Origin: Streptomyces dioscori
GTDB taxonomy: Bacteria; Actinomycetota; Actinomycetes; Streptomycetales; Streptomycetaceae
Direction: 5' to 3'
DNA: 64,000 nt
NCBI RefSeq assembly: GCF_003024195.1
Contig: NZ_KZ679061.1
Span: forward strand, 1 to 64,000
Every line of letters begins with the position of its first letter. Position 1 is the first letter of the stretch. Of the stretch, positions 36,021-51,328 are shown piece by piece. The position numbers and the translations under genes were made by a program. A model generated the notes under the pieces. It saw nothing but the letters and a program-made list of their open reading frames with translations, was not told where the DNA came from and did not search any database.

Positions 36021-36028
36021 TCTCTCTG

Positions 36029-36101
36029 TACCCCCGACCGGATTCGAACCGGCGCTACTGCCGTGAGAGGGCAGCGTGCTAGGCCGCTACACAACGGGGG
36101 C
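36029..36101 (-). tRNA. tRNA-Glu (CTC)
   Basis: Full cloverleaf on the minus strand: acceptor GCCCCCG / CGGGGGT, D arm TGTAGCGGCCTAGCAC, anticodon arm CTGCC CTCTCAC GGCAG (anticodon CTC), T arm CCGGTTCGAATCCGG, discriminator A. CCA is not encoded. Last gene of the five-tRNA cluster. Confidence 0.96.
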
Positions 36102-36121
36102 GAGGACCACAAGTGATCCAG

Positions 36122-36193
36122 CTGGGCTACCAGGACTCGAACCTAGAACAACGGAACCAGAAACCGTCGTGTTGCCAATTACACCATAGCCCA
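36122..36193 (-). tRNA. tRNA-Gln (CTG)
   Basis: Acceptor TGGGCTA / TAGCCCA with discriminator G, D arm GGTGTAATTGGCAACAC, anticodon loop TTCTGGT within ACGGT / TCCGT (one T-T mismatch at 31-39), T arm CTAGGTTCGAGTCCTGG. CCA not encoded. Confidence 0.95.
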
Positions 36194-36214
36194 ATAGTGG
36201 TCTACACCACTCTG

Positions 36215-36287
36215 TACCCCCGACCGGATTCGAACCGGCGCTACTGCCGTGAGAGGGCAGCGTGCTAGGCCGCTACACAACGGGGGC
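36215..36287 (-). tRNA. tRNA-Glu (CTC), second copy
   Basis: Identical to the copy at 36029-36101 over the whole mature region, anticodon CTC. Confidence 0.96.
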
Positions 36288-36349
36288 CCTAGCGATCCTG
36301 CATGAGAGTCAGCGGGTGCGACCCGGACTGACCCCCTGGGAAGGATCTG

Positions 36350-36422
36350 TACCCCCGACCGGATTCGAACCGGCGCTACCGCCTTGAGAGGGCGGCGTGC
36401 TAGGCCGCTACACAACGGGGGC
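36350..36422 (-). tRNA. tRNA-Glu (CTC), third copy with changed anticodon stem
   Basis: Same acceptor, D and T arms as the other two, but the anticodon arm is CCGCC CTCTCAA GGCGG: a compensated A-T to G-C type change in the stem and A instead of C at position 38. Anticodon is still CTC, so no TTC isoacceptor is present here. Confidence 0.95.
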
Positions 36423-36464
36423 CTTGCAGAGCTGGTCTCTGCTTGTGCAGATAAGCTCTGCGAG

Positions 36465-36536
36465 CTGGCCTACCAGGACTCGAACCTAGACTAACGGAAC
36501 CAGAAACCGTCGTGCTGCCAATTACACCATAGGCCA
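36465..36536 (-). tRNA. tRNA-Gln (CTG), second copy
   Basis: Acceptor TGGCCTA / TAGGCCA, otherwise close to the other tRNA-Gln, anticodon CTG, T arm CTAGGTTCGAGTCCTGG. First tRNA of the cluster in the direction of transcription; promoter not resolved in the 90 bp upstream. Confidence 0.95.
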
Positions 36537-37480: not shown

Positions 37481-38965
37481 CTACGCGGTCAGCTTCGCCA
37501 GGGCCGCGTCGATGCGCGCCAGCGACTTCTCCTTGCCCAGGATCTCCAGGGACTCGAAGAGGGGCAGGCCGATCGTGCGGCCGGTGACGGCGACACGGAC
37601 CGGGGCCTGCGCCTTGCCCAGCTTCAGGCCGTGCGCCTCACCGGCGGCCAGCACGGCCTCCTTGAGGGACTCGGCGGAGGCCCAGTCCGCGGCCTCCAGC
37701 TTCTCGCGGGCCGTCGCGAGGAGAGCGTCCGAGCCGTCCTTCATGGCCTTCGTCCAGGACGCCTCGTCGACGGCAGGCTCCGGCAGGAACAGGAAGTCGA
37801 CGTTGTCGGTGATCTCGGAGAGCACCTTCAGGCGGGTCTGCGCGTGCGGGGCGATCGCGTCCCACTTGGCCGGGTCGAAGTCCTCCGGCGCCCAGGGCGC
37901 GAAGGGGGCCTTCAGCCAGGGGGCGCAGCGCTCGGCGAACTCCTTGACGTCCAGCAGGCGGATGTGGTCCGCGTTGATGGCCTCGGCCTTCTTGAGGTCG
38001 AAGCGTGCCGGGTTGGGGTTCACGTCCGAGACGTCGAAGGCGGCGACCATCTCCTCGACGGAGAAGATGTCGCGGTCCGCCGAGAGCGACCAGCCCAGCA
38101 GGGACAGGTAGTTCAGCAGCCCCTCCGGGAGGAAGCCGCGCTCGCGGTAGAGGTTCAGCGAGGACTCGGGGTCACGCTTGGAGAGCTTCTTGTTGCCCTC
38201 GCCCATCACATAGGGGAGGTGGCCGAAGGCCGGGGTCTCCTTGGCGATGCCCAGTTCGGTCAGCGCCTTGTAGAGGGCGATCTGCCGCGGGGTGGAGGAG
38301 AGCAGGTCCTCGCCGCGCAGGACGTGGGTGATCTCCATCAGGGCGTCGTCGACCGGGTTGACCAGCGTGTAGAGCGGGGCGCCGTTGGCCCGGACGATGC
38401 CGTAGTCCGGCACGTTCTCCGGGAGGTAGGTGATCTCGCCGCGGACCAGGTCCGTGAAGATGATCGGCTCGTCGGGCATCCGGAAGCGGACGATGGGCGT
38501 GCGCCCCTCCGCCTCGTACGCGCTCTTCTGCTCGGCACTCAGGTCGCGGCAGTGGCCGTCGTAGCCGGACGGCTTGCCCGCGGCGCGGGCGGCGTCGCGG
38601 CGGGCGTCCAGCTCGGGGGTCGAGCAGTAGCAGTGGTAGGCGCGGCCGGCGTCCAGCAGCTTCCGGGCGACGTCCTTGTAGAGGTCCATGCGCTGCGACT
38701 GGCGGTACGGCGCGTGGGGGCCGCCGATCTCGGGGCCCTCGTCCCAGTCGAAGCCCAGCCAGCGCAGCGAGTCCAGGAGCTGCTCGTACGACTCCTCGGA
38801 GTCGCGGGCCGCGTCGGTGTCCTCGATACGGAAGACGAACGTGCCGCCGGTGTGGCGGGCGTACGCCCAGTTGAAGAGGGCCGTGCGGACCAGGCCCACG
38901 TGGGGGTTGCCGGTCGGGGAGGGACAGAAACGTACTCGGACGGCGGGGTCGGATGCGCTAGCCAC
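37481..38965 (-). CDS. gltX: Glutamyl-tRNA synthetase
   Basis: 494 residues, class I synthetase: HIGH-type motif [33 protein letters not shown] region, and KMSKS-type [11 protein letters not shown]. In actinobacteria GltX is usually non-discriminating and also forms Glu-tRNA-Gln for GatCAB; no GlnRS is visible in this window. GTG 38965 lies inside the last codons of the FAH gene (8-bp overlap), implying coupling. The tRNA-Glu and tRNA-Gln genes lie 1-2 kb downstream. Confidence 0.95.
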
Positions 38966-39746
38966 GCTTGACAACCTTGTTGGTGAGAGTGCCGATGCCT
39001 TCGATGGTGACGGCGACCTCGTCGCCGGCACTGAGGGGGCCGACCCCGGCGGGGGTGCCCGTGAGGATGACGTCGCCGGGGAGCAGCGTCATGGCCTCGG
39101 TGATGTTGACGATCAGATCCTCGATGGAGTGGATCATCTCGCTGGTGCGGCCCAGCTGGCGCTGTTGGCCGTTGACCGTGCACTGGATGGTGAGGTCGGA
39201 CGGGTCGAGGTCCGTCTCCACCCAGGGGCCCAGCGGGCAGGAGGAGTCGAAGCCCTTGGCCCTGGCCCACTGCTTCTCGCGCCGCTGGACGTCACGTGCG
39301 GTGACGTCGTTGGCGCAGGTGTAGCCGAGGATCACGTCCTTGACACGTTCGCGCGGGACCTCACGGCACATCCGGCCGATGACCACGGCCAGCTCGGCCT
39401 CGTGGTGCAGTTCCTCGGTGAAGGAGGGGTACGCGATCTCGTCGCCGGAGCCGATCACCGAGGTGGAGGGCTTGAAGAAGGCGAACGGGGCGTCGGGCAC
39501 CTCGCCGCCCATCTCCTTGGCGTGGTCCGCGTAGTTGCGGCCGAAGGCCACGACCTTGTTCGGGAGCACGGGCGGCAGGAGGCGGACCTTGCTCAGCGGG
39601 ACCTTGGTCCCGGAGAGCTCGAAGTCGGCGAACGGGATGCCCTTGATGATGTCGAGCACGAGGCCGTCGGTCGATCCAGGAGGGCTCTCGCCCTCGACCG
39701 CACCGAACGCGACGTTGCCGTCGATGGAGAACCTGGCGATGCGCAC
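38958..39746 (-). CDS. Fumarylacetoacetate hydrolase-family protein
   Basis: 262 residues. FAH fold with [16 protein letters not shown], metal ligands in [12 protein letters not shown] and [12 protein letters not shown], and [10 protein letters not shown] near the C terminus. Likely hydrolyses or decarboxylates a 2-oxo acid or acylpyruvate; substrate not deducible. GTG start at 39746. Conserved immediately upstream of gltX in streptomycetes. Confidence 0.88.
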
Positions 39747-39870: not shown

Positions 39871-40059
39871 CTACTCGGTGACGCCCGCCGCGACCGGGAC
39901 GTCCATGAGGATCGTGCGGCGGGGGTTGGCGGTCTGCGCGGGGAGCTCGACGGCGTGCCCCTCCTGCTCCGGCGTGCGCAGCTCCTCGGCGTCGTCGAGG
40001 TGCGCGAGGGTGGTGCGCCGCGGGTTGGCTATGTTGAGGAAGGTCATCGTCGTCTTCAT
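39871..40059 (-). CDS. Small peptide with duplicated ANPRRT motif, unknown
   Basis: 62 residues. ANPRRTTL (residues 11-18) and ANPRRTIL (44-51) are near-identical octapeptides about 33 residues apart, with an acidic stretch DDAEELRTPEQEGHAVELP between. In 61 of 62 codons the third base is G or C, strong support for coding. No transmembrane segment, no cysteine. No clear ribosome site before ATG 40059 (AAGGAACAGGG is about 15 nt away); the internal ATG at 40047 is another start. Its short length and repeats recall a peptide precursor, but no modifying enzyme is adjacent. Confidence 0.6.
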   Translation of the reverse strand: MKTTMTFLNIANPRRTTLAHLDDAEELRTPEQEGHAVELPAQTANPRRTILMDVPVAAGVTE

Positions 40060-40659
40060 CTGGGGTTACAGGCCCTGTTCCTTGGAGGCGCCGGCGGGTT
40101 CGGGAACCGTCGCGTAGGCGCGGGTTGTCGGATTTGCCATCCCTGTAAAGCGTCAGGCTAAACATGCGCTTCCCTGTCGAAGCCGTGAAGACTCCGTGAT
40201 CGCCGTGTGAGTTTCCTCACTTACTGCTGGGCATTTGGGTCAATTGGGACCCGCATCCCCAGGCCATCAAACGGACATTGCGCCACGGAAGACATCATTC
40301 CGCTCCTGATCATGGCGACTGGGACACCCCTCGCCCACGAAGGTCTCGTCCCTAAGTGTCCGATATGGACGAGGTCACTTTCTACGTCTCGTGACGCTGC
40401 CCTCACAACGCGTCACGGAGGTCACAGCATGGCTCATGGGCCTTGTTGGAGATCCGGCACTGTGCTGGAATTCCTCGGACCGCCGCAGGAACGACCCGGC
40501 GCGCAGGGGCGCAACGCAGCGCCGAGTGGCGGCGGGAAAGGGGAACCTGCGCCGGTCACTCACGACCACCACTGGGAGTGCTTTCAGGGCGCTCCCAAGA
40601 CGCCGACACCGTCCCACCGTTCACGCGGAGGGGCGCCTGGTCCAGAGGTTGCGACGCTA
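40060..40659. other. 600-bp leader region of the first conservon
   Basis: No convincing gene. GTGAG/CTCAC small palindrome at 40207-40220. The reading frame of cvnA1 stays open back to 40207, but this upstream part is compositionally unlike CvnA (Arg/Ser/Pro/His mixture) and I read it as untranslated. The promoter of the first conservon should lie here but I cannot fix it. Confidence 0.4.
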
Positions 40660-43600
40660 GTGCAGGGACGTTTCAAGAGGGATGGCAGCGCTTCGGCGGA
40701 GCCGGAGCCGCAAGGCGGGACTGGCCCCAGGGCAGTCGGCTCCTCGCCCCAGCACGCCCAGAACCCGGGACCGGCGCAGGCCGGCAACAGCGGTGACCGC
40801 TCCTCGCGGCCCGGTGCGCCCAAGGGCGCCCAGGGCAAGGGCGGTCCGAACGCGGCGAACGGTGCTCCCGGCACCCCGGCACCCGCGCCGCCCAAGGCGA
40901 AGGGCCCCAGCGGCCCCGGCTCGCGCATAGCACTGCGTAACTGGCGCATCTCCACGCGTCTGGTCTCGCTGCTCGCGCTGCCCGTGGTCGCGGCCACCTC
41001 GCTGGGCGCGCTGCGCATCAGCGACACGATGGACGAGATCCAGCAGCTCGAAAACATGAAGCTGCTGACCGACATGACGAAGCAGGCGACCGAGCTCGCC
41101 GCGGCGCTCCAGACGGAGCGCGACAAGTCGGCCGGTCCGCTCGCCAACGGCACCAAGGCCAGCGACGTCACGATCAAGGGCCTCCGCGACAAGACGGACC
41201 GTGCGCGTGCCGCCTTCCTGGAAGGCACCCACGAGCTCGACGACGCGGACAACAACGAGAACCTCGACGGTGTACGCGACAACGTGGTGGCCATCGCCAC
41301 CCAGCTGAACACCCTCAACAAGGTCCGTAACAACGCCTTCCAGGACGAGGACAACTCGTCCCAGTCGGTGGAGGCGTACCACCGCCTCATCGAGCAGCTG
41401 CTCGGTCTCTCCCAGGACATGGCCGAGGCGACCAGCAACCCGGAGATGATCCAGCGCACGCGCGCCCTGGCGGCGTTCTCCACCGCCAAGGAGTACGCGT
41501 CGGTCCAGCGCGCGATCATCGCGGCGGCCCTGCCCTCCACGAACAAGACGTTCGGTGAGCTCTCCCCGAACGACCGGCAGTACGGCCTCTCCGCCTTCGA
41601 GAACCAGAAGTTCGAACTCACGAGCTTCGCCAACATCTACGAGGGCAACGCCGACCAGCTCACCAAGCCGCTCGACGAGCCGAGCCCGACCATCAAGGAC
41701 GCCGACGGTTATCTGTCGCGCGTCCTGCAGCGCAACAACGGTCTGCAGCTGCAGGCCAAGCGCTCGTACCTGGACTGGGTGGACGCCGACTCCGCCAAGA
41801 TCCTGGAGATGTCGAAGATCGAGCTGACGCTCCTCAACCAGATGGAGCAGAAGGCCCGCGAGCTGCGCAACGAGGCCGAGCAGGAAGCGATCATCTCCGG
41901 TGCGCTGATCCTGCTGGTGCTCGGTGTGTCGCTGGTCGGCGCCTTCGTGGTGGCCCGCTCGATGATCCGCTCGCTGCGCCGGCTGCAGGACACCGCGACG
42001 AAGGTCGCCCAGGACCGGCTGCCCGAGCTCGTCAAGCAGCTCTCCGAGTCCGACCCGCAGGACGTCGACACGTCCGTCGAGTCGGTCGGTGTGCACTCCA
42101 AGGACGAGATCGGCCAGGTGGCCGCGGCCTTCGACGACGTGCACCGCGAGGCCGTACGACTCGCCGCCGAGCAGGCCCTCCTGCGAGGCAACGTCAACGC
42201 GATGTTCACCAACCTCTCGCGCCGTTCGCAGGGCCTCATCCAGCGTCAGCTCTCGCTCATCTCCGAACTGGAGTCCCGCGAGGCCGACCCGGACCAGCTG
42301 TCCTCCCTGTTCAAGCTCGACCACCTCGCGACCCGCATGCGCCGTAACGGTGAGAACCTCCTGGTCCTCGCCGGTGAGGAACCCGGCCGACGCTGGACCC
42401 GCCCGGTCCCGCTGGTCGACGTGCTCCGCGCCGCCGCGTCCGAGGTGGAGCAGTACGAGCGCATCGAACTCTCCTCGGTGCCCACCACCGAGGTCGCCGG
42501 CCGCGTGGTCAACGACCTCGTGCACCTGCTCGCCGAGCTGCTGGAGAACGCCACGTCGTTCTCCTCCCCGCAGACCAAGGTCAAGGTCACCGGTCACGCG
42601 CTGCCCGACGGCCGCGTACTGATCGAGATCCACGACACCGGCATCGGCCTCTCGCCCGAGGACCTCGCGGCGATCAACGAGCGGCTCGCCTCGCCGCCCA
42701 CCGTGGACGTCTCGGTCTCGCGCCGCATGGGTCTGTTCGTGGTCGGCCGGCTGTCGCAGCGGCACGGCATCCGCATCCAGCTCCGCCCGTCCGACTCCGG
42801 TGGTACGACCGCGCTGGTCATGCTGCCGGTCGACGTCGCCCAGGGCGGCAAGAAGGTTCCGGGCAACAAGCAGGGCCAGGGCGCTCCCGCCGTCGGCGGT
42901 CCGGCGGCGGCGCAGGCCGCGGCCGGTGTCGCGGCGGCCCGCCGGGGCGGTGCCGGCAGCGGTCCCGCTCTCGGCGCGGGTGCGCAGGGACAGGGCAACG
43001 GTCAGGGCAACGGCGGCCGGCTGAACCCGCCGCCGCAGCGTGGCCAGGTCGGAGCGGGTTCCGCGCCGCGGGCCGCACTGCCCAGGCCCGAGGCGGGCGG
43101 CCGTCCGGGTGGACCGGGTGCGCAGGGCGGAAACCGCAACCAGCAGTCTCCGCAGCAGCCCCCGTATCCCCCGCAGGGCAGGCCGGCACCCGCGGGCGCC
43201 GGTGCCCAGCAGAGCTTCAACGGCTTCGGGAACAACTCCGGCGGCCAGCAGGACCTGTTCGGCGGCAACCGCCAGGACACCATGGGCGGCAACCGCGGCC
43301 CCGGTTCCGGGCAGCAGCCCCAGCAGCGGCCCGCCGGCAACGGCGACCAGGGCCGTCGCCCCCAGCAGCAGTCTCCGCAGCTGCCGCCCCGCGGCGGCCC
43401 GCGCGCCGAGCTGCCGGGCGGCAACCCGCAGCCGCGGGTGCCCAGCTGGAGCGACGACAACGCGCAGCCGCCGGTGCCGCGTTCCGCGCAGGACGCCCCG
43501 CGCGGCCACGAGGAGCCGGACGTCACCTCGCAGATGCCGCGGATCGACGACCGGCAGGCCGGACCCGCGTCCACCGCCGAGTTCCAGCGGCCCGATTACG

Positions 43601-44478
43601 ACGCCCCGCGTCCCGGCGCGAACGCGCCGCAGGACAACGGACAGTTCGTCCGCACGGACGTGTTCGGTGCGCCGAACCACTCCGGTGCGGGGCACAACCC
43701 GCAGGCGGGCGGCCAGTACAACCGCCAGGACCCGGCGCAGTACGCCCCGAACGGGTACGACACCGGGACCAACGGCAACGGCCAGTACGCGGCGCCCGCC
43801 CAGCAGGACACCGGGCAGTACCCGGCGCAGGGCTACGGCGAGCGGCAGGACGGTGGCACCGGTCAGTTCGAGCGGCCGGCCAACGGCAACCGCCCGCCGC
43901 AGCAGCGCCCGCAGGCGCGCCGCCGCCCCGCGCTCCCCCCGGAGCCGGACAACAGGACCGCTCCTCAGCGGCCCGACGAGGTGCGGGGGCCGAACGACGG
44001 CTGGGAACTGCCGCCGGCGACGAGTCCCGGCGACGGACGTACACCGCTGTACGACACCCTGGAAACCAACTGGTTCAACCAGGCTCAGGGCGGCGACGGC
44101 GCCCAGAACGAGCAGACGCCGCAGCAGCCCGTACAGGCTCCCGCGGCCCCGCAGCGTCCGGCACCCGCCGGCGCTTCCGCCTCTTCCTGGCGGACCACTC
44201 CCAATGACGAACTCGGCCGTCAGGCCGAGCGGGTACGCCAGCCCTCCGCGGGTGGCGTGACCGTCTCGGGTCTGCCGCGCCGGGTCCCCCGCGCGAACCT
44301 TGTCGCGGGAACGGCTCAGCAGCAGCAACAGCACCAAACCGGTCCGCAGGTCTCGCGTGCGCCCGATGACGTACGTGGACGGCTGACCAATCTTCGTAGG
44401 GGCATTCAGCAGGGGCGCCAGGCCGGTACCGGCCAGACCGGCAGCTTCCCCAGCCCCACTCACCAGCAGGAGCGTTAG
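40660..44478 (+). CDS. cvnA: Conservon sensor histidine kinase-like protein CvnA (first copy)
   Basis: 1272 residues. A Gly/Pro/Ala-rich N terminus, TM1 (LVSLLALPVVAATSLGALRI), an extracellular nitrate/nitrite-sensing-type helical domain, TM2 (ALILLVLGVSLVGAFVVA), a HAMP-like linker, then a HATPase domain with LAELLENATSFSSPQ (N box), IHDTGIGLSPEDL (G1) and SRRMGLFVVGRLSQRHGI. No classical HisKA phosphoacceptor is seen. A 500-residue Gln/Gly/Pro-rich tail ends in a conserved motif GLPRRVPRANLV. CvnA receives an external signal and works with CvnB-D. GTG 40660 chosen by comparison with family N termini (QGRFKRDGSA). Confidence 0.85.
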   Translation: MQGRFKRDGSASAEPEPQGGTGPRAVGSSPQHAQNPGPAQAGNSGDRSSRPGAPKGAQGKGGPNAANGAPGTPAPAPPKAKGPSGPGSRIALRNWRISTRLVSLLALPVVAATSLGALRISDTMDEIQQLENMKLLTDMTKQATELAAALQTERDKSAGPLANGTKASDVTIKGLRDKTDRARAAFLEGTHELDDADNNENLDGVRDNVVAIATQLNTLNKVRNNAFQDEDNSSQSVEAYHRLIEQLLGLSQDMAEATSNPEMIQRTRALAAFSTAKEYASVQRAIIAAALPSTNKTFGELSPNDRQYGLSAFENQKFELTSFANIYEGNADQLTKPLDEPSPTIKDADGYLSRVLQRNNGLQLQAKRSYLDWVDADSAKILEMSKIELTLLNQMEQKARELRNEAEQEAIISGALILLVLGVSLVGAFVVARSMIRSLRRLQDTATKVAQDRLPELVKQLSESDPQDVDTSVESVGVHSKDEIGQVAAAFDDVHREAVRLAAEQALLRGNVNAMFTNLSRRSQGLIQRQLSLISELESREADPDQLSSLFKLDHLATRMRRNGENLLVLAGEEPGRRWTRPVPLVDVLRAAASEVEQYERIELSSVPTTEVAGRVVNDLVHLLAELLENATSFSSPQTKVKVTGHALPDGRVLIEIHDTGIGLSPEDLAAINERLASPPTVDVSVSRRMGLFVVGRLSQRHGIRIQLRPSDSGGTTALVMLPVDVAQGGKKVPGNKQGQGAPAVGGPAAAQAAAGVAAARRGGAGSGPALGAGAQGQGNGQGNGGRLNPPPQRGQVGAGSAPRAALPRPEAGGRPGGPGAQGGNRNQQSPQQPPYPPQGRPAPAGAGAQQSFNGFGNNSGGQQDLFGGNRQDTMGGNRGPGSGQQPQQRPAGNGDQGRRPQQQSPQLPPRGGPRAELPGGNPQPRVPSWSDDNAQPPVPRSAQDAPRGHEEPDVTSQMPRIDDRQAGPASTAEFQRPDYDAPRPGANAPQDNGQFVRTDVFGAPNHSGAGHNPQAGGQYNRQDPAQYAPNGYDTGTNGNGQYAAPAQQDTGQYPAQGYGERQDGGTGQFERPANGNRPPQQRPQARRRPALPPEPDNRTAPQRPDEVRGPNDGWELPPATSPGDGRTPLYDTLETNWFNQAQGGDGAQNEQTPQQPVQAPAAPQRPAPAGASASSWRTTPNDELGRQAERVRQPSAGGVTVSGLPRRVPRANLVAGTAQQQQQHQTGPQVSRAPDDVRGRLTNLRRGIQQGRQAGTGQTGSFPSPTHQQER

Positions 44479-44901
44479 TTGAGCCAGATGAGCCAGGCGG
44501 CACAGAACCTCAACTGGTTGATCACCAACTTCGTTGACAACACCCCCGGGGTGTCCCACACCGTCGTCGTTTCCGCCGACGGACTCCTTCTGGCAATGTC
44601 CGAGGGCTTCCCGCGCGACCGCGCCGACCAGCTCGCGGCCGTTGCCTCCGGACTCACGTCCCTGACCGCCGGCGCCTCCCGCATCTTCGAGGGCGGCACG
44701 GTGGCCCAGACGGTCGTCGAGATGGAACGGGGTTTCCTCTTCCTCATGTCCATCTCGGACGGGTCCTCCCTCGCGGTCCTCTCCCACCCGGACTGCGACA
44801 TCGGCCTCGTCGGATACGAGATGGCTCTGCTTGTGGACCGTGCGGGCGCAGTGCTCACACCGGATCTGCGGGCGGAGCTCCAGGGCAGCCTGCTCCACTA
44901 G
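44479..44901 (+). CDS. cvnB: Roadblock/LC7 protein CvnB (first copy)
   Basis: 140 residues, MglB-like roadblock fold (NLNWLITNFVDNTPGVSHTV, VEMERGFLFLMSISDGSSLA). In conservons it bridges the sensor CvnA and the GTPase CvnD, likely as a GTPase-activating or scaffold protein. The TTG at 44479 directly follows the cvnA stop and has AGGAG at 6-nt spacing; ATG 44488 lacks a well-spaced ribosome site. Confidence 0.92.
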   Translation: MSQMSQAAQNLNWLITNFVDNTPGVSHTVVVSADGLLLAMSEGFPRDRADQLAAVASGLTSLTAGASRIFEGGTVAQTVVEMERGFLFLMSISDGSSLAVLSHPDCDIGLVGYEMALLVDRAGAVLTPDLRAELQGSLLH

Positions 44902-45003
44902 CAAGGTTCTACCGAATACAGGAAAAACCGTCCGGCCGCCCTCCCCCCACCGGCCCCGTCAGACGGCACGACTGACCGACTTGCTGTCCCGCCCGGAGGA
45001 TCC

Positions 45004-45402
45004 ATGACCCCGCCCACCGCTTCTCATGATCCGTACGCTCATTCGTACGAGGATGAGGGCGACCAGCCGCTGGTACGTCCGTACGCGATGACCGGCGGCC
45101 GGACCCGGCCGCGCTACCAGCTCGCCATAGAGGCACTGATCAGCACCACGGCCGATCCGGCAGCGCTCATGGGGCTGCTCCCCGAGCACCAGCGGATCTG
45201 CCACCTCTGCCGTGAAGTCAAGTCGGTGGCCGAGGTCTCGGCTCTGCTCTCCATGCCCCTGGGCGTGGCACGGATTCTTGTCGCGGACCTCGCGGAGGCC
45301 GGACTCGTCGCGATCCACCAGCCTGGTGGCGACGAGAGCAACGGTGGCGCTCCGGCCGTGACACTGCTCGAAAGGGTGCTCAGTGGACTTCGCAAGCTCT
45401 GA
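45004..45402 (+). CDS. cvnC: DUF742 protein CvnC (first copy)
   Basis: 132 residues; a short disordered N terminus then the DUF742 winged-helix-like core LVRPYAMTGGRTRPRYQLAI, EHQRICHLCREVKSVAEVSA and GVARILVADLAEAGLVAIHQ. No DNA-binding proof; in conservons it forms part of the CvnA-D membrane complex. ATG 45004 after GGAGGATCC. Overlaps cvnD by 20 bp. Confidence 0.92.
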   Translation: MTPPTASHDPYAHSYEDEGDQPLVRPYAMTGGRTRPRYQLAIEALISTTADPAALMGLLPEHQRICHLCREVKSVAEVSALLSMPLGVARILVADLAEAGLVAIHQPGGDESNGGAPAVTLLERVLSGLRKL

Positions 45403-45958
45403 CGGAGGGCGGGCGACCACCTCCGCAAAGATCGTAGTGGCGGGTGGTTTCGGCGTCGGCAAGACCACGTTCGTGGGTGCCGTCTCCGAGATCAACCCGC
45501 TGCGCACCGAGGCCGTGATGACGTCCGCGAGCGCCGGCATCGACGACCTCACGCACACCGGGGACAAGACCACCACGACGGTGGCCATGGACTTCGGCCG
45601 TATCACCCTGGACCAGGACCTGATCCTGTACCTCTTCGGTACACCGGGTCAGGACCGCTTCTGGTTCATGTGGGACGACCTGGTACGCGGCGCGATCGGC
45701 GCCGTCGTCCTGGTCGACACCCGGCGCCTGGCCGACTGCTTCCCGGCGGTCGACTACTTCGAGAACAGCGGACTGCCGTTCGTCATCGCCCTCAACGGCT
45801 TCGACGGACACCAGCCCTACACTCCCGAAGAGGTTCGCGAGGCTCTGCAGATCGGGCCCGACGCCCCGATCATCACGACGGACGCCCGCCATCGTTCGGA
45901 CGCCAAGAGTGCTCTGATCACGCTCGTCGAGCACGCCCTGATGGCGCGCCTGCGGTAG
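45383..45958 (+). CDS. cvnD: Ras-like GTPase CvnD (first copy)
   Basis: 191 residues, MglA-like small GTPase: P loop GGFGVGKTTFVG, switch region TTVAMDFGRI, FGTPGQDRFWFMWDDL (G3), and LNGFDG where the usual NKxD is NGFD. Acts as the switch of the conservon. GTG start inside the cvnC 3' end. Confidence 0.93.
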   Translation: MDFASSDGGRATTSAKIVVAGGFGVGKTTFVGAVSEINPLRTEAVMTSASAGIDDLTHTGDKTTTTVAMDFGRITLDQDLILYLFGTPGQDRFWFMWDDLVRGAIGAVVLVDTRRLADCFPAVDYFENSGLPFVIALNGFDGHQPYTPEEVREALQIGPDAPIITTDARHRSDAKSALITLVEHALMARLR

Positions 45959-46180: not shown

Positions 46181-46341
46181 ATGTTCCGTTTTATCTGCGG
46201 TTCACGTCACCCGGAATCTTCGGTTCCGAGTGTTTGGACGAGCACACACTGACGTGCTGGAATGCCAGAACTGCCCAGTAGTAAGGGCCGGAAGACACAC
46301 GCGGCACGACGAAGGTGCCGAGCCGAGAGGTTGTTGGTCGA

Positions 46342-49300
46342 GTGAGGCGAAGCAAGAACGGTCCCGAGCCGTCGGCACGGGGCAACTTCACCCCGCCGCC
46401 GCGCGGAGCGGCACCCGCACATGTGCCCGGCTCGGAGCCGACGGCCGCACCCCCGCCCAGCGGGGGCCGTCTGTCTCCGCGTAACTGGCGCGTACCGACC
46501 AGACTGAATGCCATCCTGCTCATACCCGTGGTGGTCGGCCTCGTCATGGGCGGCTTCCAGGTGAAGAGCTCGATCGACACCTGGCAGGAGGCCGAGGACG
46601 CGGAGAGCACCGCGCGCCTGGTCCGCGCCGCCCTCACCTACGGCGACAAGCTGTACGCCGAACGCGACATCACGGCCGCCCCCCTCCTGGAGGGCAAGGG
46701 CGAGAAGGACGCGACCGTCGTCGAGGCCCGCAGCGAGACGAACGCGGCGGCCGTCGCCTTCAACGAGGCCGCCAAGAACATGCCGGCCAAGGCCGGACTC
46801 GAACGCCGCCTCGCGATCTTCCGCAAGCAGGAGCCCAAGCTCGCCGCCCTGCGCGCGGCCGCGTACACCTCGAAGCTCAAGGGCGTGGAGACCGAAGAGG
46901 GTTACGTCGAGATCCAGCACCCGCTGATGGAGTTCGCCAACGAACTCGGTCTGGGCACCGGAAACATCACCAGCTACGGCCGTACGGTCTACGCGATCTC
47001 CCTCTCCAAGGCCGCTCTCTCGCTCCAGCGCTCCATCGGCACCCATCTGCTGATCAAGCCGGGGCCCTCCGAGGAGAGCCTGGCCAAGCAGCGCGTCGCC
47101 CTCACCTCGTACGCCTACCTCGAAGGCATCGCCATCGAGGAGTACATCGGTGGTGGTACGGAAAGCGACGCCGCCAAGCTGGAGCAGGCCAAGAAGCAGA
47201 TCCAGACAGACGGCGCGGCGCAGGCCAAGGAGGCCGCGGAGACCGCCGCGGCCCGTGGGCAGACGTATGTCCCGCCGCCGTCCGGCGACACCGCCATGGT
47301 CAGCGGTATCGGCACGCTCGCGACGACCGACGCCAGTGCGCGGGTCGCGCTCGCCGACAAGGGCATCACCGCGCAGAACTGGTGGGCGGTCAACACCGCC
47401 AAGTACAACGCCTACCGCACCATCGAGGCGGACCTCGGCGACAAGGCCGTGTCCGAGGCCTCGACCATCGCCTCCGACGCCAAGCGCGACGCCTTCATCA
47501 CCGGTGCCGCCGTCGTCATCGCCCTGCTCGCCGCGTTCATCCTGGCCGGCATGGTGGCCCGCCAGATGAGCCGCTCGATGCGCCAGCTGCGCAACGCCGC
47601 CTTCGGAGTGGCCGAACAGCGCCTGCCGATGCTCGTCGACCAGCTCTCGCGCACCGACCCGGGCCGGGTGGACACCCGTGTCCAGCCCATCCCGATCAAC
47701 ACCACGGACGAGATCGGCGAAGTCGCCCGCGCCTTCGACCAGGTCCACCGCGAGGCCGTACGACTGGCCGCCGAGCAGGCCCTCCTGCGCGGCAACATCA
47801 ACGCGATCTTCACCAACCTGTCGCGCCGCAACCAGTCCCTGATCGAGGGCCAGCTGACCCTCATCACCGACCTGGAGAACAACGAGGCCGACCCGGACCA
47901 GCTGGAGAACCTCTTCCGCCTGGACCACCTGGCCACCCGTATGCGCCGCAACGGCGAGAACCTCCTGGTCCTCGCGGGCGAGGAGCCCGGCCGCCGCTGG
48001 GACCAGCCGGTCCCGCTGGTCGACGTGCTGCGCGCCGCCTCCTCCGAGGTGGAGCAGTACGAGCGCATCGAGCTGTCCGGTGTCCCGGAGGCCGAGATCC
48101 ACGGCCGTGCCGTGACCGACCTCGTGCACCTGCTCGCCGAGCTCCTGGAGAACGCCACCACGTTCTCCTCCCCGCAGACCAAGGTCCGCGTCACCGCGAC
48201 CCGCCTGCCCGACGGCCGCATCATGGTCGAGATCCACGACAAGGGCATCGGCCTCACCGCCGAGGACTTCGCGGACATCAACCACAAGCTGGCCAACCCG
48301 CCGACCGTGGACGCCGCGATCTCCCAGCGCATGGGCCTCTTCGTGGTCGGCCGGCTGTCCGACCGGCACGGCATCCGCGTCCAGCTGCGCCCCTCGGGCG
48401 AGCAGGCCGGCACGACCTCGCTCGTCATGCTCCCCGACGCCATCACCCACGGTGGGGGCGGCGACTACCAGGTGCAGCGCGACGACTTCACGGTCTCGCA
48501 GATCATCCCGGAGCCCGAGCAGCAGCCGCAGCCGCCCTTCGGCGGCGAGGAGTTCCAGAGCGCCCAGCCGGCCCTGCGCACGGCGGCCGAACTGGGCTTC
48601 GACGACAGCCGCTACAACCCCGAGGTCCCCGACGACATACGCGAGCTGGACCCGGTGGGCCGCTCGCTCATGCGTGAGGAGCGCCGCGCGGCCCTGGAGG
48701 CCCAGACGCACGGCCCCGACGGCGAGGCTCCTTCCTTCCAGGGCGAGTTCGACCCGCAGCAGGCCTACGACAACGGTGGCCAGGGGTACGAGAACGGGCA
48801 GCCCGCGTTCGACGACACGTCGGCCGCGTACACCGAGACGCCCGCGTACACCGACGCTCCCGCCTACGACCAGCAGACGTCGTACGAGGGACAGCAGCAG
48901 ACGTCGTACGACGAGACGTACTTCCCGCAGGTCCCGCAGGCCGGCGGGTACCAGGAAGGCACCTACGCGGAGCCGGGCCAGGACGAGCAGCAGCCGGACC
49001 CGGCCGCCGGGCAGGACGCGTTCCCGCCCTTCCAGGAGCAGCCGTACCAGGACGACTGGCCGCAGCAGGACGCGTACCAGAACGGCTTCCCCGCCGAGTA
49101 CGCTCCGCAGGCCGAGTCCTCGCAGACCGCTGAGGCGGCCGAGCAGGACAGCGTAGGCTTCGATGCTCCGGGACCGGTCCCCTCCAGCGCCCCCGAGCTC
49201 ACCGACGCCGGACTTCCGCGCCGCGGAACCACCGACGCCGGACTTCCCCGCCGCGGAGCCACCGCGGCCGGCAAGCAGTCCGTGGGCCAGGAGTCACCGG

Positions 49301-49668
49301 CGCCCTTCGCGAACAACGACAGCAACGGCGGCGGCAGCAGCAACGGCACCGGCGGCAAGGGCGACTGGCGGTCGAACAACGACCAGATGTGGCACCGGGC
49401 CGAAGCGCTGAAGCAGCCCAAGGCGGGCGGGGTCACCTCCTCCGGCCTGCCGCGGCGGGTACCCAAGGCCAATCTGGTCGAGGGCACCGCGGAATCGACC
49501 CCGCAGGGCGGCCCTCAGGTCTCCCGTGCTCCCGAGGAAGTCCGGGGCAGGCTGAGCAGCCTGCGACGGGGCGTGCAGCGGGGCCGAGACGCAACCAGTG
49601 AAACGAACGGTCAGGCCACCAGGAACCAGCACGGTGGCCCTGACAGCACCTACAACCAGGAGCGTTAG
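46342..49668 (+). CDS. cvnA: Conservon sensor histidine kinase-like protein CvnA (second copy)
   Basis: 1108 residues. RRSKNGPEPSARGNFTPPPR N terminus, TM1 (AILLIPVVVGLVMGGFQV), a nitrate/nitrite-sensing domain different in sequence from the first copy, TM2 (FITGAAVVIALLAAFILAGM), HAMP linker, HATPase with LLENATTFSSPQ, IHDKGIGLTAEDF, MGLFVVGRLSDRHG. Tail of about 400 residues rich in Gln, Glu, Tyr and Ala with repeats DAGLPRRGTT / DAGLPRRGAT, ending in the same GLPRRVPKANLV motif. GTG 46342 preferred over upstream starts by family comparison. Confidence 0.88.
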   Translation: MRRSKNGPEPSARGNFTPPPRGAAPAHVPGSEPTAAPPPSGGRLSPRNWRVPTRLNAILLIPVVVGLVMGGFQVKSSIDTWQEAEDAESTARLVRAALTYGDKLYAERDITAAPLLEGKGEKDATVVEARSETNAAAVAFNEAAKNMPAKAGLERRLAIFRKQEPKLAALRAAAYTSKLKGVETEEGYVEIQHPLMEFANELGLGTGNITSYGRTVYAISLSKAALSLQRSIGTHLLIKPGPSEESLAKQRVALTSYAYLEGIAIEEYIGGGTESDAAKLEQAKKQIQTDGAAQAKEAAETAAARGQTYVPPPSGDTAMVSGIGTLATTDASARVALADKGITAQNWWAVNTAKYNAYRTIEADLGDKAVSEASTIASDAKRDAFITGAAVVIALLAAFILAGMVARQMSRSMRQLRNAAFGVAEQRLPMLVDQLSRTDPGRVDTRVQPIPINTTDEIGEVARAFDQVHREAVRLAAEQALLRGNINAIFTNLSRRNQSLIEGQLTLITDLENNEADPDQLENLFRLDHLATRMRRNGENLLVLAGEEPGRRWDQPVPLVDVLRAASSEVEQYERIELSGVPEAEIHGRAVTDLVHLLAELLENATTFSSPQTKVRVTATRLPDGRIMVEIHDKGIGLTAEDFADINHKLANPPTVDAAISQRMGLFVVGRLSDRHGIRVQLRPSGEQAGTTSLVMLPDAITHGGGGDYQVQRDDFTVSQIIPEPEQQPQPPFGGEEFQSAQPALRTAAELGFDDSRYNPEVPDDIRELDPVGRSLMREERRAALEAQTHGPDGEAPSFQGEFDPQQAYDNGGQGYENGQPAFDDTSAAYTETPAYTDAPAYDQQTSYEGQQQTSYDETYFPQVPQAGGYQEGTYAEPGQDEQQPDPAAGQDAFPPFQEQPYQDDWPQQDAYQNGFPAEYAPQAESSQTAEAAEQDSVGFDAPGPVPSSAPELTDAGLPRRGTTDAGLPRRGATAAGKQSVGQESPAPFANNDSNGGGSSNGTGGKGDWRSNNDQMWHRAEALKQPKAGGVTSSGLPRRVPKANLVEGTAESTPQGGPQVSRAPEEVRGRLSSLRRGVQRGRDATSETNGQATRNQHGGPDSTYNQER

Positions 49669-49669
49669 T

Positions 49670-50092
49670 GTGAGCCCGATGAGCCAGGCGGCACAGAACC
49701 TGAACTGGTTGATCACCAACTTCGTGGACAACACCCCCGGGGTGTCCCACACCGTGGTGGTCTCCGCCGACGGACTCCTTCTGGCGATGTCCGAAGGGTT
49801 CCCGCGTGACCGCGCCGACCAGCTGGCGGCCGTCGCGTCGGGCCTGACCTCACTGACCGCGGGCGCGTCCCGCATCTTCGAGGGCGGGAGCGTGAATCAG
49901 ACGGTTGTGGAGATGGAGCGGGGATTCCTGTTCATCATGTCCATTTCCGACGGTTCCTCACTCGCCGTTCTCGCACATCCGGAAGCGGACATCGGTCTCG
50001 TTGGGTACGAGATGGCCCTTCTGGTCGACCGCGCCGGTACGGTCCTCACCCCGGATCTGCGTGCCGAGCTTCAGGGGAGCCTTCTCAACTAG
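49670..50092 (+). CDS. cvnB: Roadblock/LC7 protein CvnB (second copy)
   Basis: 140 residues, nearly identical to the first CvnB; most differences are at the N terminus and in the C-terminal helix. GTG 49670, 1 nt after the cvnA stop, with AGGAG at 7-nt spacing. Same role as above. Confidence 0.92.
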   Translation: MSPMSQAAQNLNWLITNFVDNTPGVSHTVVVSADGLLLAMSEGFPRDRADQLAAVASGLTSLTAGASRIFEGGSVNQTVVEMERGFLFIMSISDGSSLAVLAHPEADIGLVGYEMALLVDRAGTVLTPDLRAELQGSLLN

Positions 50093-50184
50093 CAGACAAG
50101 CGATGCGTTTTGGCGTCCCGTGGCCGTAAGGTTTCGGGACGCGGCTCCACATTGATGGGCCCGGCACATTCGGAGGAGGAGAAA

Positions 50185-50766
50185 GTGGCAACACCCCCAG
50201 GCGGTTCGTCTTCGGGCAACTGGTCCTACGGCCCCGGCCAGGGCCAGGGCGGCGACGGTTCGCCGAACCGGTACAACTTTCCCTCCGCGCCGAGCCCCCG
50301 ACGCCAGCAGCCCTACTCTCCTCAGGGTCCGGGCCCCTCTCCTTACGACCAGCCGCCGGCACCGCGCATCCAGCCCGTGCAGCCGCAGCGGCGCTCGCCC
50401 GAACCGTCTCCCGCGGGGAGCGCCAGCAATCCGCTGGTCCGCCCCTACGCGATGACGGGCGGCCGTACCAGGCCGCGATACCAGCTCGCCATCGAGGCGC
50501 TGGTGCACACTACAGCGCAGCCGCACCAGATGCAGGGGCAGTTGCCCGAGCATCAGCGCATCTGCAACCTCTGCCGGGAGATCAAGTCGGTGGCCGAGAT
50601 CTCGGCCCTGCTGACGATTCCTCTCGGTGTGGCCAGGATCCTTGTCGCCGACTTGGCGGAGGCGGGCCTGGTCGCCATTCATCAGCCCGGCGGCGACGAG
50701 AACGCCGGCGGTCAGCCAGACGTGACTTTGCTCGAAAGGGTGCTCAGTGGACTTCGCAAGCTCTAG
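50185..50766 (+). CDS. cvnC: DUF742 protein CvnC (second copy, long N terminus)
   Basis: 193 residues. A Gly/Pro/Gln-rich disordered N terminus of about 90 residues precedes the DUF742 core (LVRPYAMTGGRTRPRYQLAI). GTG 50185 follows GGAGGAGGAGAAA. The long N terminus distinguishes it from the first CvnC and may give partner specificity. Overlaps cvnD by 20 bp, as in the first conservon. Confidence 0.92.
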   Translation: MATPPGGSSSGNWSYGPGQGQGGDGSPNRYNFPSAPSPRRQQPYSPQGPGPSPYDQPPAPRIQPVQPQRRSPEPSPAGSASNPLVRPYAMTGGRTRPRYQLAIEALVHTTAQPHQMQGQLPEHQRICNLCREIKSVAEISALLTIPLGVARILVADLAEAGLVAIHQPGGDENAGGQPDVTLLERVLSGLRKL

Positions 50767-51328
50767 CGGAGGGCCTTCCCGCTCCACCACGTCCGCGAAG
50801 ATCGTGGTGGCGGGCGGCTTCGGCGTGGGCAAGACCACGTTCGTCGGGGCCGTCTCGGAGATCAACCCGCTGCGTACCGAGGCCGTGATGACGTCCGCTT
50901 CGGCGGGCATCGACGACCTCACCCACACCGGGGACAAGACCACCACGACGGTGGCCATGGACTTCGGCCGTATCACCCTGGACCAGGACCTGATCCTGTA
51001 CCTCTTCGGTACACCCGGCCAGGACCGCTTCTGGTTCATGTGGGACGACCTGGTACGCGGCGCGATCGGCGCGATCGTGCTCGTCGACACGCGCCGTCTC
51101 GCCGACTGCTTCCCGGCGGTCGACTACTTCGAGAACAGCGGACTGCCGTTCGTGATCGCTCTCAACGGCTTCGACGGCAGCCAGCCGTACAACCCGGACG
51201 AAGTCCGGGAAGCGCTCCAGATCGGCCCCGACACCCCGATCATCACGACGGACGCCCGCCACAGGGCGGACGCGAAGTCGGCGCTGATCACGCTGGTGGA
51301 GCATGCTTTGATGGCGCGCTTGCGGTAG
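50747..51328 (+). CDS. cvnD: Ras-like GTPase CvnD (second copy)
   Basis: 193 residues, differing from the first CvnD at only a few sites, chiefly a two-residue longer N terminus and HQPYTPEE to SQPYNPDE. All GTPase motifs conserved, including the NGFD variant. Followed by an 18-bp hairpin terminator. Confidence 0.93.
   Translation: MDFASSSGGPSRSTTSAKIVVAGGFGVGKTTFVGAVSEINPLRTEAVMTSASAGIDDLTHTGDKTTTTVAMDFGRITLDQDLILYLFGTPGQDRFWFMWDDLVRGAIGAIVLVDTRRLADCFPAVDYFENSGLPFVIALNGFDGSQPYNPDEVREALQIGPDTPIITTDARHRADAKSALITLVEHALMARLR

Follow-up and report, generated by a model that had tools for sequence, protein, structure and literature searches.

A near-universal small twin-motif protein of Streptomycetaceae, a candidate bivalent linear-motif ligand encoded beside the cvn1 conservon

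In the window (the whole stretch of Streptomyces dioscori DNA analysed, 64,000 nucleotides of contig NZ_KZ679061.1), a 62-amino-acid protein with two near-identical motifs is encoded next to the conservon gene cvnA1, and sequence comparison indicated that it represents a previously undescribed core family of Streptomycetaceae, for which a plausible but unproven mechanism can be proposed. What is new here is the recognition of this near-universal twin-motif family. A near-universal small protein in a much-studied bacterial family that is missing from curated libraries is an annotation blind spot, and in many genomes the protein presumably carries the label "hypothetical protein". We give about an even chance to the reading that it is a small, cytoplasmic, disordered protein that acts as a bivalent linear-motif (SLiM) ligand on two sites of a dedicated partner.

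The gene lies at 39871..40059 on the minus strand, with its ATG at 40059 and its TAG stop at 39871, and its 62 codons are translated into MKTTMTFLNIANPRRTTLAHLDDAEELRTPEQEGHAVELPAQTANPRRTILMDVPVAAGVTE*. Residues 11-18 are ANPRRTTL and residues 44-51 are ANPRRTIL, and only 3 of 20,000 shuffled versions of the peptide contained an exact internal 6-mer repeat. The third codon position is G or C in 61 of 62 codons, the sole exception being the ATA of Ile10. The first-pass annotation had reported the 62 residues, the two octapeptides and this GC3, all of which were confirmed by translation, and its remark on a weak ribosome site was also correct: a good Shine-Dalgarno sequence is absent beside the ATG, the sequence directly 5' being AACCCCAG, and an ACAGGG lies about 16 nt 5' of the ATG. 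Judged from its relatives and from the pN/pS pattern, the ORF is a real protein gene. Synonymous change was very low in codons 2-9 (40036-40056; pS 0.12), and the rare ATA codon was kept in 16 of 29 relatives, which perhaps reflects a translation-start or RNA constraint.

Selection was analysed as uncorrected pN/pS over all pairs among 29 sequences. Motif copy 1 (40006..40029, minus strand; consensus (I/T)ANPxRTTL(A)(H/S)) gave 0.021 and motif copy 2 (39907..39930, minus strand, after Thr43; consensus TANPxRT(V/I/N)L(M)(D/E)xP) gave 0.177, while the linker between them (residues 19-43, 39931..40005, minus strand) drifts freely only in its middle part, with 0.47 for residues 19-27 and 0.74 for residues 28-42, and the C-tail gave 0.68. 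This pattern pointed to selection on the protein sequence of the two motifs, with much else drifting. The core motif across diverse genera is (T/I)-A-N-P-x-R-T-x-L. The first Arg is replaced by K, Q, L, N, E or G in some members, but no inspected member had lost A, N or the second Arg, the exceptions at other positions being one T-to-A and one P-to-V, and this combination fits specific recognition better than bulk charge. Exactly two motifs, spaced 27-54 residues apart, were present in 188 of the 189 distinct peptides, although the invariance counts in this set are partly forced by the search pattern, the other motif inspections being less biased. A third ANPRRT at one locus was rejected, as it lies 5' of the start codon in an untranslated part of the frame. 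In the S. dioscori genome, ANPxRTxL (CGN arginine codons only) is coded twice, both times in the twin-motif gene, and in the genomes scanned the motif appears close to private to this protein, which suggests that the protein has a partner of its own with two sites, in the simplest case a dimer. The only recurring in-frame match elsewhere, SANPTRTALE, was taken as convergence; we take its ORF to carry the PLP-enzyme motif of cystathionine gamma-synthase/lyase.

The protein is probably disordered, as suggested by AlphaFold2 modelling with 51 relatives, which gave a mean pLDDT of 62, a pTM of 0.15 and no domain; the model is too poor for fold comparison, and a low pLDDT at 62 residues is weak evidence for disorder. 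The linker is usually acidic, as the earlier mention of an acidic spacer had it, and its net charge among the 189 distinct peptides is mostly -3 to -6. An alternative is a nucleic-acid binder, in which the Pro-Arg-Arg turns would hold on to RNA or, in the manner of SPKK/SPRR minor-groove motifs, to DNA, and the acidic linker would be a spacer. The two Asn-capped basic Pro-Arg-Arg turns and the predicted disorder would suit such a protein, but E, G, L, N or Q can take the place of the first Arg, in contrast to the conserved A, N and T. The window protein also has 6 K/R against 9 D/E, and the linker is usually acidic, so we consider this reading unlikely. The same motifs could instead be modified by a dedicated enzyme, by Thr phosphorylation after Arg-Arg or on Arg/Asn, which would make the protein a substrate and a switch. 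The Thr that follows the second Arg hardly varies in either copy, and the motifs are short and equivalent; against this, one member (L216) has Ala for that Thr in copy 1, and no candidate enzyme lies nearby except the histidine-kinase-type cvnA, which leaves a substrate role improbable.

A precursor with a duplicated core had also been suggested for the peptide, that is, a RiPP or peptide-hormone precursor from which two core copies are freed by proteolysis. A duplicated short motif in a small peptide does occur in multi-core precursors, but Pfam matching of 27 predicted proteins, mostly encoded within 20 kb, revealed neither a RiPP enzyme nor a transporter or dedicated protease family in the neighbourhood. 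Cys is absent from all 189 distinct peptides and there is no hydrophobic stretch, and the repeated motif is the most conserved part and near-fixed, with the linker and C-tail most variable, as opposed to a hypervariable, diversifying core. The precursor claim is therefore very unlikely to hold. A secreted trypsin-like gene lies 20 kb from the twin-motif gene. By hydropathy, the window protein has no signal-peptide-like stretch (highest 19-residue Kyte-Doolittle mean 0.34), and a secreted signalling peptide is not supported, given the lack of a Sec/Tat-type stretch. The proposal of a signal for the neighbouring sensors thus found no support in its extracellular form, while a physical or genetic link to cvn1 did, because the gene stays with cvnA1.

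A profile search (profile built from 29 relatives) found the twin-motif protein in 244 of 249 Streptomycetaceae genomes and 15 of 17 genera, with one copy in nearly all matching genomes, while searching 61 genomes with the single sequence yielded 35 matches, all from the same genus. The named records with relatives were Streptomyces plus one filed as Kitasatospora, so that the family concerned is Streptomycetaceae. Five Streptomycetaceae genomes were unmatched, and three of these (genus g15) hold a diverged copy in which both motifs are kept (STHRTNTANPRRTQLD...GPTANPRRTNLM). Another, G197, is 71% complete and a cvnA match is absent from it too. In G074, and in G010 from the 61-genome single-sequence sample, cvnA, FAH and the palindrome between them (described below) are all present and the twin-motif gene is absent, and these two appear to be natural, clean losses, which provide a built-in comparison. 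Outside Streptomycetaceae, a class-wide sample gave six short matches only (E 0.002-0.01), which were taken as chance because they are short and weak; no convincing relative was found in an outgroup order (best E 0.04) or in the plasmids and phages searched. In an outgroup of the same order, FAH-gltX is present and neither the peptide nor cvnA lies beside it. The absence of a recognised family, already remarked on by the first-pass annotation, was borne out: the window protein had no match in Pfam (E 0.1), NCBIfam, PHROGs or PDB, and 51 relatives gave scattered weak matches to family libraries in 1-3 members only, none of them consistent. In the open literature searched, we found no paper describing the protein, nor the terms ANPRRT, SCO5545 or sven5240. 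The first-pass annotation had named a lack of conservation of frame or motif as grounds for refuting its reading; reading frame, motif and synteny were all kept across Streptomycetaceae.

Domain matches identified the neighbours. On the plus strand, cvnA1 (40657..44478) encodes the conservon histidine-kinase-like sensor (NIT-HAMP-HATPase) and is followed by cvnB1 (Roadblock), cvnC1 (DUF742) and cvnD1 (GTPase) at 44479..45958. A second conservon kinase and GTPase lie within 46315-51328, which agrees with the earlier report of a two-conservon locus on the other strand. On the minus strand, 3' of the twin-motif gene, are an FAH-family hydrolase gene (38958..39746; PF01557, Rv2993c-like) and then gltX. 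In every locus matching both genes, the twin-motif gene is head-to-head with cvnA1, usually 500-610 bp from start to start, and the cvnA1 start is conserved in all of these loci. The gap to FAH varies from 81 to >800 bp. In a further departure, 10 sampled genomes have FAH-gltX at another place, with the twin-motif gene still beside cvnA1. The constant head-to-head arrangement and the variable or lost FAH linkage indicated that the gene goes with cvnA1 or with the shared region and not with FAH-gltX, which makes FAH a neighbour and not a partner; the separation corresponds to 1-3 events on the cvnA tree, and since it may be a single event, it provides moderate evidence only. At two loci, L202 (G103) and L203 (G172), FAH-gltX lies about 11 kb from the peptide-cvn1 block in inverted relative orientation. 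Head-to-head linkage can persist merely through a shared regulatory region, and because G010 and G074 keep cvnA without the peptide, Cvn1 is not strictly dependent on the twin-motif protein.

The position of the ORF 5' of FAH-gltX on the same strand, together with the Glu-rich codons of the window copy, could also suggest a leader peptide or attenuator ORF controlling FAH-gltX. However, amino acids are conserved rather than codons, the Glu-containing linker is the variable part, and the changing distance to FAH and its displacement in the sampled genomes do not suit attenuation, so this explanation is extremely improbable. Five tRNA genes (Glu-Gln-Glu-Glu-Gln) lie near gltX at 36028-36536 on the minus strand.

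The region between the twin-motif gene and cvnA1 contains conserved elements. A -10-like TAGCCT box (40155..40160, minus strand) in the conserved block TTTAGCCTGACGCTTTACA is a putative promoter toward the peptide gene, to judge from its position and conservation. Upstream of it, the palindrome GTGAGGAAACTCACA (40206..40220, minus strand) has CRP/GlxR-type half sites (GTGA-N6-TCAC) and is a putative operator. It is kept in most of Streptomycetaceae in the family form GTGAGCAAA(C/A)TCACA, a pattern that occurs once in the 10.2-Mb genome, and was not found in genera g15 and g18. Where both elements were found, the palindrome lies a fixed 59-60 nt from the TAGCCT box, while the box itself stands anywhere between 44 and 163 nt from the start codon. 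The palindrome fits GTG-N8-CAC of GlxR but is without the G that the Crp consensus of S. coelicolor, GTG-N6-GNCAC, contains (PMC10033298). A CRP/GlxR-type protein may bind the palindrome. Since the palindrome persists in G010 and G074 without the peptide, it may also act for cvnA1 or FAH. Scans for sigma-70 and terminator consensus found nothing, and the stretch 3' of the twin-motif gene folds no better than shuffles (z -0.67). Between 39746 and 39870, a second TTAGCCT lies 5' of FAH, hinting that FAH has its own promoter of the same type.

Toward cvnA1, the intergenic region holds a further conserved block at 40294-40330, ATTCCGCTCCTGATCATGGCGACTGGGACACC, which contains GACAC, a sequence that we take to be the WhiA motif. 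The 5' leader of cvnA1 (40436-40660, plus strand) is strongly conserved across the family and includes the block CCTTGTTGGAGATCCGGCACTGTGCTGGAATTCC; just 5' of the cvnA1 start is a hairpin, CGTCCC...GGGACG. Of its 14 predicted pairs, 5 are changed on both sides with pairing kept. There was no Rfam match, and the leader is a possible cis-regulatory RNA. In S. venezuelae, the cvnA1 promoter is reported to be bound by BldC and WhiA/WhiB, and aerial growth is impaired in the cvn1 mutant (PMC6428758, PMC4850268).

In the bivalent-ligand reading, two equivalent (T/I)ANPxRTxL copies would be joined by a flexible, usually acidic linker, and both would dock on two equivalent sites of one partner, most simply the protomers of a dimer. 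Docking would tether, activate or block the partner, with the protein acting as adaptor, tether or antagonist, and the gene would be expressed from a CRP-type promoter region under developmental regulation. By location only, the Cvn1 proteins stand out as partner candidates, and the partner would be a component of the Cvn1 conservon complex, in which CvnA is of the dimeric-kinase type and CvnB is a Roadblock protein. The "small regulatory protein" proposed at first pass fits this model. A more specific version sees in the protein a conservon accessory of a third type, whose TANPxRTxL pair would bridge the halves of the dimeric Cvn1 sensor complex and tune G-protein signalling as Streptomyces develops, under CRP-type, WhiA/WhiB and BldC control; this version is speculative and on balance rather doubtful. 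Should the twin motif bind Cvn1, it would offer a way into the tuning of conservons, whose signal path is poorly understood, and the motif is short enough for direct testing with synthetic peptides.

Among known systems, TrpM-type small ORFs are similar by description: TrpM is a small protein of Streptomyces whose function was at first unknown and whose gene has metabolic genes beside it, but it lies in a trp operon (PMC5036795). The accessory proteins known from conservons go with CvnA proteins that have no extracytoplasmic sensor domain, and CvnF8, encoded beside its conservon, binds and stimulates its kinase CvnA8 (PMC13343842). The twin-motif protein is likewise encoded beside a conservon, as are CvnE (P450) and CvnF (GAF), but it has 62 amino acids and no GAF or P450 domain, its gene is divergent whereas those of CvnE and CvnF are downstream in the operon, and CvnA1 has a NIT sensor domain (E 8e-41). 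It therefore does not show the defining features of CvnE and CvnF. Short linear motifs also occur repeated in small disordered proteins that bind dimeric or multi-site partners. TANPxRTxL has no counterpart in the libraries searched, but the twin-motif protein resembles these proteins in having at least two conserved short motifs in one chain, nearly identical to each other, in conservation limited to the motifs, and in a flexible acidic linker, disorder being taken here from the low-confidence AlphaFold2 model.
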